NCBI GenBank assembly: GCA_031213475.1 | Contig: JARUPZ010000012.1 | Span: forward strand, 11,304,727 to 11,368,726 | Length of the DNA: 64,000 bases | Direction: 5' to 3' | From: Nereocystis luetkeana | Lineage: Eukaryota; Sar; Phaeophyceae; Laminariales; Laminariaceae | Shown: piece after piece, positions 1,284 to 61,147 of the stretch | How the letters are laid out: each line of letters opens with the position of its first letter | Position numbering within the stretch: the stretch's first letter is position 1 | Notes under the pieces: generated by a model | Seen by the model: only the letters and a program-made list of their open reading frames with translations | Databases searched by the model: none | Told to the model about the DNA's origin: nothing | Program-made: the position numbers and the translations under genes

Positions 1284-4200
1284 GTGAGTGTGGTGGTGGT
1301 GCCGGTTGTGCCCGTACGTACTATTACGGGGGACCTTAGTAAATAGGACCAAATATTGTGACTAAAATATATAAATATTTCGTGTGCCCGAAGACAGAAA
1401 ATAAATAATTACCTCTATTTCCAGTACGAAATAATTGAATTGAAACCGAGGTCAATTTATTAGGTTTTTGTGTTCACCGTAGGTGTTCTTTACTATGGTC
1501 CCCCGTATTAAGATTTTCAGTTGAAAACAAGGGAAAAACAAATGTGCTGGTGCTGGTGTTGTTGGTGTTGGTGATGGTGGTGATTTGTTGGTGGTTTGTT
1601 GGTGTTGGTGGTGTTGGTGATGGGGGGGTTTGTAGATGGTGGGCGAGATGTTGTGGGGTTGTGGTGGTGCTTGCTTGTGGTGTTGGTGTTGGTGTTGGTG
1701 GTATTGGGTGTGATGGTGTCGGCGTGGTTTTTGTTGGTGTCGGCGTGGCGGTGGTGTTGGCGGCATCATTCGCGGTGTTATTGGCGGCATCATTCGCGGT
1801 GTTATTGGCGGTGGTGGTGGTGTATTAGGTGTGGTTTGTTAGGTGTTGGTTTGTGCTGTGTTGGGTGGTGGAGTTGTGTGTGTTGGTGTTGCGTGGTATG
1901 TATGTTGGTGTGTTAGACTATTACGGGGGACCATAGTAAATAGGACCAAGTGCTCTTAGTAAACATTGGGGGATATGTAGGTTTTTGTGTGTACCGTAGG
2001 TCCTGTTTACTATGTTCCCCCGTAATGGTTAATTGCTGTACCAGGTACGTATTAGATTATTGTAGGCACGTGATCGGGTGCAGTGGTATGCCTGGTAGGC
2101 CCTTGGCCACGAAAAGGTGCAATAATATGTAGGCTCGTGGTCAGGAAAAGGTGCAATATAGTGCCGTGGTCACAAAAAGGTGCAATTATACAGGCCCGTG
2201 GTCACAAAAAAATGCAATTGTATAGGCCCGTGGTCACGAAACGGTGCAATTATATAGGCCCGTGGTCGCGAAAAGGTGACATTTTATAGGCCCGTCAGGA
2301 AAAGGTGCCATTATACAGGCCCGTGGTCAGGAAAAGGTGCAACTATATAGTGCCGTGGTCACAAAAAGGTGAATTATATAGGCCCGTGGTCACAAAAAAA
2401 TGCAATTTTATAGGCCCGTGGTCACGAAACGGTGCAATTATATAGGCCCGTGGTCGCGAAAAGGTGACATTTTATAGGCCCGTCAGGAAAAGGTGCCATT
2501 ATACAGGCCCGTGGTCAGGAAAAGGTGCAATCATATACGTCGCACCGTGGTCACGAAAAGGTGCAGGGACACTCGTATTGTAGTACCACTACTAATACCA
2601 CTATTAATATTACTACGACGACTATACTCCTGCATCCCCAGTAACTATTAATTGTTACAGTAGATTTGTCATTTCCTCTACTATTACTACTGTACGTCAC
2701 TACCTCTATTTTTATGAAACTACTACACTGCTCCTGCTACTACTAGTGCTACCACTACTACTATTACTACTACTACTACTACGACTACTACTACTACTAC
2801 TATTTATACTACTACTACTACTACTACTACTACTACTACTACTACTACTACTACTACTACTACTACTACTACTGCTACTGCTACTACTACTACTACTACT
2901 ACTACTACTACTACTACTACTACTACTACTACTACTACTACTATTAATACTACTCCTCCTGCTGTTGGCAATACTCCTACTTCGAAGTATATAAGAACTG
3001 ATATTGCTAACCACCACGACAACGAGCACTACTGCCTTGTCTTGAACCTTTTTCTATTCTTGCTGCGATCGGTGTCACCTTAAAAGAAAGTGTTTTCGAA
3101 ATCGTAAAGTTTGTCAGGAGACGGCGGGAATTTCCCCCCTCATTTTCCTTAACTGACGCCAAACTACTAGGTTTTGGTGTGGAACACTCGGATCCACACC
3201 CTTGACCCGTGGCACGTTTTCCCTTGACCGACCCGTCCCCTGACATTCTGTTTTGTCTTCCAGGGATCGTGGTGGACAAGTACTGCATCGACGGTACCAC
3301 CTTCGAGATGTACGACGTGGGGGGGCAGCGCAACGAACGCAAGAAGTGGATCCACTGCTTCGACAACGTCACCGCCGTCATCTACGTTGCCGCTCTTTCG
3401 GAGTACAACCAGGGGATGTTTGAGGACGCTAACACCAATCGGTACGTTAAAAAAACGCCAAAGAAATGTCTTGGAAACCCCCTTGTATTTCCTGCGCTGT
3501 ACGTAGCACCAACCCTTACTCGTACGTAACGCCAAATGATGCCTTGTTTGGGAAAACCCTCTTTTGTTTCCCTGCGCTCTCTTGGGTGGGATTTTCTTGT
3601 CTTCTTGCCACACGCGATTGCGGTGTCCTGTCCGGTCGTGTGCGGTGCTGCGCTGTGCTGTGGTGTTCCATGCGCGTTATTTTCTGATTCTGCTGTATGG
3701 GATTTGCAGCTCTGTCGTGCCATGTAAAAGCACTGCTGTACGTGATTTACAGCTATGTCATATCGTCTCATACCAGGTACATTTAGTAAAATGTCGTGTC
3801 TGGTATTGCGTGATTTACGGCTCGGTCTTGTCATCGTACCAGGTACGATACCAGGTATGTGATTTATATAGCTCATACCAAGTTCTACAACACTGCTGTA
3901 CCGCTCTTTCAATCATACCGTTACGTATGCGCTTGCCTGCTGTGCTGCATACACAAAAACGACGTTGGCGAGAAGATGTTGACTCTCGAGTCCAAACGAG
4001 CCTTCAGTACAGTAATATATCCTGCTCTGACCGGTATTGTAAGACCCGTTTGTACTATAATGGAAATATAAAACGGAGCTTACGTTATCGGCCATGCCAT
4101 GGTACTGTATTACACCAGGTATCAGATGTTCGACCGGTGTGGTACATTTAGTGGCCGGACTTGTAAGGAGCGTTTAGACATCAATATGAAGGCCAAGTGG

Positions 4201-61147: not shown

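Follow-up and report, generated by a model that had tools for sequence, protein, structure and literature searches.

Why should one nine-letter palindrome recur so often, and in such uniform shape, in the DNA of the brown alga Nereocystis luetkeana? In the window, by which we mean the whole stretch of 64,000 nucleotides under analysis, the nonamer TACCWGGTA was found 33 times as an exact match, whereas 100 dinucleotide shuffles of the window held a mean of 0.58 copies and none of them (0/100) reached 33. A sequence-only reading of the window had listed 33 copies against a chance expectation of about 0.5 and had proposed that they are the footprints of a TA-targeting transposon. All 33 copies are present, the expectation agrees with the shuffles, and two coordinates that were off by 10 are corrected in Table 1.

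Abundance and sharpness of the nonamer

The enrichment extends beyond the window, as the genome-wide count proposed in the sequence-only reading makes clear. Across the assembly (465,085,209 bases in 1,987 contigs), TACCWGGTA occurs 182,395 times compared to 1,744 for the reversed pattern, a density of 0.39 per kb (about one per 2.5 kb) and ~105-fold that of the control. Twenty 10-kb tiles from twenty contigs (200 kb) held 60 nonamers, and since 18 of these tiles were positive and 2 empty, the enrichment is not local to the window. With doubles merged, the counts over 26 tiles were near Poisson (mean 3.23, variance 4.02). Doubles were seen at 9 loci in viral contigs, where their density was unremarkable, and an Rfam search gave no match. 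Separately, a minisatellite with TACCCGGGTA-like units at 34348-34740 of the window could inflate the counts of similar palindromes.

An odd palindrome with an A/T centre, uniform and ~105-fold over its control in a genome where 18 of 20 tiles carry it, recalls HIP1 of cyanobacteria (GCGATCGC), a highly iterated palindrome discussed with methyltransferases (PMC4390886), which is likewise short and very dense. The nonamer might thus be a palindrome that binds a protein or has a structural role, and that selection has maintained or multiplied. The variation around it points the other way. In a 282-kb sample composed of the window, the 20 tiles and six 3-kb loci chosen because they bear the nonamer, the centre was A or T in 104 copies and C or G in 3, and the one-mismatch versions occurred 0 to 11 times each. 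The 24 one-mismatch versions total 93, compared to ~50 predicted from the 252 two-mismatch versions; set against the 104 intact nonamers, the excess of ~43 translates into a decay of roughly 5% at each base, and transitions are over-represented. This is the picture expected of sites that are neutral and fairly young, and decay with an excess of transitions is at odds with a motif held by selection. Other spacers between TACC and GGTA were near background in the 282 kb (about 4 each), with four exceptions: none (11), two bases (16), six (8) and eight (21, at least 9 of which are doubles).

Table 1. Positions of the nonamer in the window, and target duplications of the 986-995 bp CCAGGG-ended family elsewhere in the assembly
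Feature	Position	Strand	Remark
nonamer (putative scar) TACCAGGTA	2039..2047	.	exact match
nonamer TACCAGGTA	3771..3779	.	exact match
nonamer TACCAGGTA	3837..3845	.	exact match; 3 bp to nonamer at 3849
nonamer TACCAGGTA	3849..3857	.	exact match
nonamer TACCTGGTA	5298..5306	.	exact match
double TACCAGGTACCAGGTA, two nonamers with a common TA	6856..6871	.	exact match
nonamer TACCAGGTA	11293..11301	.	exact match
nonamer TACCTGGTA	13332..13340	.	exact match
nonamer TACCAGGTA	13782..13790	.	right flank common with 13929 (local duplication), not independent
nonamer TACCAGGTA	13929..13937	.	exact match; right flank common with 13782
nonamer TACCTGGTA in MITE copy	14067..14075	.	alignment unclean, 7-bp gap in 3/24 copies
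nonamer TACCTGGTA	15595..15603	.	exact match
nonamer TACCAGGTA in MITE copy	21606..21614	.	one 7-bp gap in 23/34 homologous copies
nonamer TACCAGGTA	23555..23563	.	exact match; earlier placed at 23565
nonamer TACCTGGTA	25978..25986	.	exact match
nonamer TACCTGGTA	26327..26335	.	exact match
nonamer TACCTGGTA	37690..37698	.	exact match
nonamer TACCAGGTA	37851..37859	.	exact match
nonamer TACCTGGTA	45398..45406	.	exact match
nonamer TACCAGGTA	47024..47032	.	CACCAGG directly before; resembles decayed double
nonamer TACCAGGTA	48293..48301	.	exact match
nonamer TACCAGGTA in hairpin repeat	48411..48419	.	clean empty copy 0/1
double TACCAGGTACCAGGTA	49332..49347	.	exact match
nonamer TACCTGGTA	49413..49421	.	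exact match
nonamer TACCAGGTA	50284..50292	.	exact match
nonamer TACCTGGTA	52049..52057	.	exact match
nonamer TACCAGGTA	55872..55880	.	exact match
double TACCAGGTACCAGGTA	58422..58437	.	exact match
nonamer TACCAGGTA	58556..58564	.	exact match
nonamer TACCTGGTA	60161..60169	.	earlier placed at 60171; 8-bp gap against the single copy compared
duplication TATATA	C1:7169733, C14, C22		986-995 bp family
duplication TAAATA	C8		986-995 bp family
duplication TACATA	C3		986-995 bp family
duplication TATAAA	C1:5328957		986-995 bp family
duplication TTTGTA	C17		986-995 bp family
duplication CTGGTA	C5		986-995 bp family

Insertion at TA, target site and doubles

For every one of the 104 nonamers, the two flanks were joined at a single TA and searched against the 282-kb sample, which gave a junction-spanning match for 23 of the 104 queries; 12 nonamers qualified in a stricter gapped comparison. 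Exactly one 7-bp gap was found at clean nonamers, namely at 21606 in the window, where the MITE insertion described in the sequence-only reading held up well, and at L003:1501 (4/8 copies), L016:831 (2/2) and L025:9283 (1/1). The same gap was found in a minority of the copies at L002:1501 (1/4), L017:6298 (3/37) and window position 14067. At four of the 12, other net lengths prevailed: L002:1501; L016:8865, with net 11 in 1/1 copy; L017:6298, where the rest of the 37 copies were mostly net 6, that is, the insertion minus one base; and L021:5762, with net 5 in 34/40 copies, inside a TATATA stretch. A further four were unclean: L010:4504 (0/2) and three of the MITE and hairpin examples put forward earlier, of which 14067 retains its few 7-bp gaps, while 48411 yields none and 60161 has an 8-bp gap at 73% identity (1/1). 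Wherever repeat copies carrying the nonamer align cleanly to copies that lack it, a TA in the latter is replaced by TA-CCWGG-TA in the former; TA stands on both sides of the scar where the empty copy has a single TA, as in a duplication of a TA target. The insertion is convincing in some families but not in others, so that the alignment of filled and empty repeat copies, suggested at the outset, bears out the 7-bp insertion in several families and gives other lengths or unclean alignments in the rest.

Such an origin by 7-bp insertion at TA in cleanly aligned repeat copies is not expected of a selected motif, and by our own criterion a HIP1-like motif is one that is not made by insertion; in this the nonamer differs from the bacterial GCGATCGC. 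We also considered that the nonamer is a piece of an amplified repeat, copied along with it. Some nonamers do lie within MITEs, the right flank common to 13782 and 13929 is a duplicated one, and some CCAGGG-ending MITE copies may descend from one another, but the flanks of the 104 copies have only a weak target consensus in common and a junction-spanning match in 282 kb was obtained for just the 23 queries above, which makes this origin highly improbable. An abundant MITE of ~114 bp (TATTACGGGGGACCATAG...), found for example at 5549-5664 of the window, gave 72 alignments of at least 80 bp in 286 kb, and several of its copies carry nonamers.

The bare target, as seen in the 86 single nonamers (the 18 in doubles being set aside), is purine-TA-pyrimidine and is dyad-symmetric about the TA. 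The claim that no flanking bases are conserved therefore needs qualification: the flanks of the 104 copies share nothing beyond this weak symmetric consensus, but the consensus exists. A second TA lies exactly 7 bp off on the left in 31% and on the right in 28% of the 86 sites, compared to 6.9% of all TAs, and a TA at 4 bp is likewise more frequent. By analogy, a symmetric bare-TA target may reflect a dimeric transposase. The outer symmetry is a property of the bare TA site, which again argues against selection on the nonamer as such, and we regard a selected motif as very unlikely; this and the repeat-fragment origin were both tested and are weaker than an excision scar.

The overlapping doubles had been taken to be repeated insertions at one TA, and their centres are indeed independent: the mixed-centre double TACCAGGTACCTGGTA occurs 4,522 times genome-wide and 0 times in the reversed control. 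Simple tandem copying would not yield mixed centres, and the same TAs were re-used independently. The doubles are explained in part because the scar itself creates TAs 7 bp apart.

A minor form with one extra G, TACCAGGGTA, numbered 5 in 218 kb of fetched loci outside the window (L001-L028 minus L005 and L006), where 0.76 would be expected; the canonical form numbered 71 there against 2.46 expected, and shorter forms were not clearly raised in these loci (TA-CCAG-TA 16 vs 11, TA-CCGG-TA 6 vs 4.4). One MITE family carries at the same TA TACCAGGGTA in L041, L042 and L048 and TACCAGGGGTA in L049, and its L042 copy holds two further canonical nonamers, at TAs that were formerly 7 bp apart. Provided that scars derive from ends, the additional G of the minor scar suggests a source whose ends read CCAGGG. 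The left half of the MITE followed by CCWGG without a following T was not enriched (120 vs 108 in the reversed control); among the 100 such matches listed, a hand count gave CCAGGG as the ending of about two thirds and CCTGGG as that of one, and some of the CCAGGG-ending copies may be alike by descent.

Excision as the probable origin

We consider it likely that TACCWGGTA marks sites from which cut-and-paste transposons have excised, elements that target TA and have inverted ends beginning CCAGG, probably CCAGGG. Such an element would insert at a TA and duplicate it. On its exit, staggered cuts by the transposase, at the tip on one strand and 5 nt further in on the opposite strand, would leave a CCAGG overhang on each side. 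Four of the five bases of the two overhangs could pair, the central A facing another A, and host repair would then ligate the two sides and resolve the A:A mismatch, so that the centre becomes either A or T and the site reads TACC(A/T)GGTA; occasionally one additional base would stay, giving TACCAGGGTA. The TAs of a scar would lie 7 bp apart, the spacing that the transposase appears to prefer, and scars would thus be struck again to form doubles. The self-complementarity of CCAGG would account for the uniformity of the scars, and a palindromic scar would imply terminal inverted repeats in the source. The transposon proposed in the sequence-only reading is in this way favoured by the enrichment, the insertion at TA, the symmetric target and the independently centred doubles, while the element itself was not found.

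The extra-G scar and the ambiguous A/T centre are also what set excision apart from an enzyme-made, direct insertion of the 7-bp unit at TA at which no full element was ever present, since direct insertion alone predicts neither. A transposase or integrase could bring it about in a reaction that is abortive or involves the ends only, as could templated repair of a staggered break, and it would suit both the great uniformity of the scar and the failure of the searches made to find a source element with a TA duplication; it would, however, require a new reaction, and we think it unlikely.

Footprints of Tc1/mariner elements arise from overhangs of 2-3 nt, and that of Sleeping Beauty/Tc1 reads TAC(A/T)GTA; piggyBac elements target TTAA and excise seamlessly, and PIF/Harbinger elements make 3-bp target duplications (TNA, ANT). 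Sleeping Beauty cuts 3 nt inside its ends and its footprint is identical to its 3′ overhangs, as described in PMC7827188. The scars in the alga share with Tc1/mariner, and with Sleeping Beauty in particular, a TA target and its duplication, a short scar between two TAs, a symmetric target, and ends that would be self-complementary except for a central A/T, here read from the scars. Unlike Tc1/mariner footprints, they have 5 nt rather than 3 between the TAs, which is not the product of a 2-3 nt overhang, and they number ~180,000 in a single genome. The source of the scars works like Tc1/mariner as regards its target and the type of scar; the length of the scar differs, and we do not file the source as a member. 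The TA target and the presence of a scar separate it from piggyBac, and the 2-bp TA duplication from PIF/Harbinger; the CCAGGG-ended family described below is set apart from PIF/Harbinger by its 6-bp duplications.

Ectocarpus, likewise a brown algal host, is described as having many non-autonomous Mariner-Tc1 elements and MITEs (PMC12477816); the words 'footprint' and 'excision' are absent from the main text of that account, in which we found no such scar described. Our literature search by title found nothing on TACCAGGTA as a transposon excision footprint, and a literature search found nothing joining brown algae, transposable elements and excision footprints.

The scale and uniformity of the scars are the surprising part; the mechanism we infer. 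Tentatively, they may record a lineage with near-self-complementary 5-nt CCAGG ends whose excisions the host closed nearly all alike, the elements now being rare or gone and the scars common in non-coding DNA as a datable record of at most ~180,000 jumps. That figure sets a ceiling on the number of independent events, because some scars were copied along with their repeats. If this is true, the scars can be counted, dated by their decay and mapped, and would thereby report on jump frequency, DNA preference and host repair even without the elements, and a hundredfold enrichment of a motif in a eukaryotic genome need not mean a binding site.

The search for a source element

Outside the nonamer, TACCAGG was barely raised in the 282 kb (41 vs a background of 25-32), and none of the inverted pairs bounded by TACCAGG that the sample (282-286 kb) yielded made a good element. 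Genome-wide, TACCAGGG without a following T (TACCAGGGV) was not enriched (4,015 + 3,852 = 7,867 vs 40,853 in a control inflated by MITE sequence). A TA-duplicating element with CCAGG ends was thus not found by inverted-pair and end-pattern searches, and none of the loci examined was seen in both the element and the scar state. Ten long open reading frames of the fetched loci matched RVT_1, TIG and ephrin-receptor-like domains in Pfam, a DNA transposase being absent; the TIG domains, which are numerous, and the ephrin-receptor-like domain lie in long open frames at L020:2-5953, and RVT_1, a reverse transcriptase domain, in an open frame at L021:2-3013.

Several inverted arrangements were noted along the way. 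L038 has an inverted TACCAGG pair of 495 bp with 11/20 matching positions, and at L007:2208-2236 an AT-rich core lies between TACCTGG and CCAGGTA, which are 29 bp apart, an arrangement that is possibly a remnant of a source element. L053, L056 and L057 (C1) are a diverged repeat, 75-84% identical in aligned parts, and within L053 two TACCAGGG sites lie in inverted orientation, 244 bp from each other; this pair (C1:5628521-5628764) was rejected as an element since L056 and L057 have similar flanks, which makes it part of a longer repeat.

The inverted, CCAGG-ended and TA-flanked element expected by the sequence-only reading did not materialize in these searches; the one CCAGG-ended family with clear inverted ends that they brought up has 6-bp target duplications in all 8 copies read. 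It was recognized from an inverted pair of 986 bp at C1:7169733-7170718, among the 100 TACCAGGG-not-T matches listed, with 18 identical terminal bases (CCAGGGATGCGTATTTCC). The exact end, TA plus CCAGGGATGCGTATTTCC, occurs 28 times genome-wide and 0 times in the reversed control, and 5 pairs lie 986-995 bp apart. Four copies compared were about 99% identical in aligned parts and the two translated had no open frame over 109 aa; the family is young and non-autonomous (L052, L054 and L063-L072, on C1, C3, C5, C8, C14, C17 and C22). Its duplications (Table 1), which for the C1:5328957 and C5 copies assume one changed base at the element tip, are longer than the 2-bp TA of Tc1/mariner and presumably recall Dada elements, with duplications of 6-7 bp.

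The CCAGGG ends and near-identity of its copies would commend this family as the maker of the scars, as would a nonamer no more than 20 nt away in 3/8 copies (compared to 287 of 11,974 TAs in tiles) and one copy lying within a nonamer. The search pattern itself, however, forced the CCAGGG letters and the adjoining TA, there are just 28 exact ends, and 6-bp duplications in 8/8 copies would leave 6-bp repeats around a scar rather than a bare TA-CCWGG-TA; we rejected the family as the source, and such a role is extremely doubtful. Its proximity to nonamers may mean that both kinds of element favour TA-rich sites. The copy within a nonamer, L071 (C5:505457), has the duplication CTGGTA and the left flank TATACCTGGTA.

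Among 96 open reading frames of the window, Pfam returned G-alpha and a weak LacY match. The G-alpha subunit gene lies at about 1130-8150 on the + strand and has long introns, and its closest named proteins are brown algal (Ascophyllum 82%, Ectocarpus 78%).
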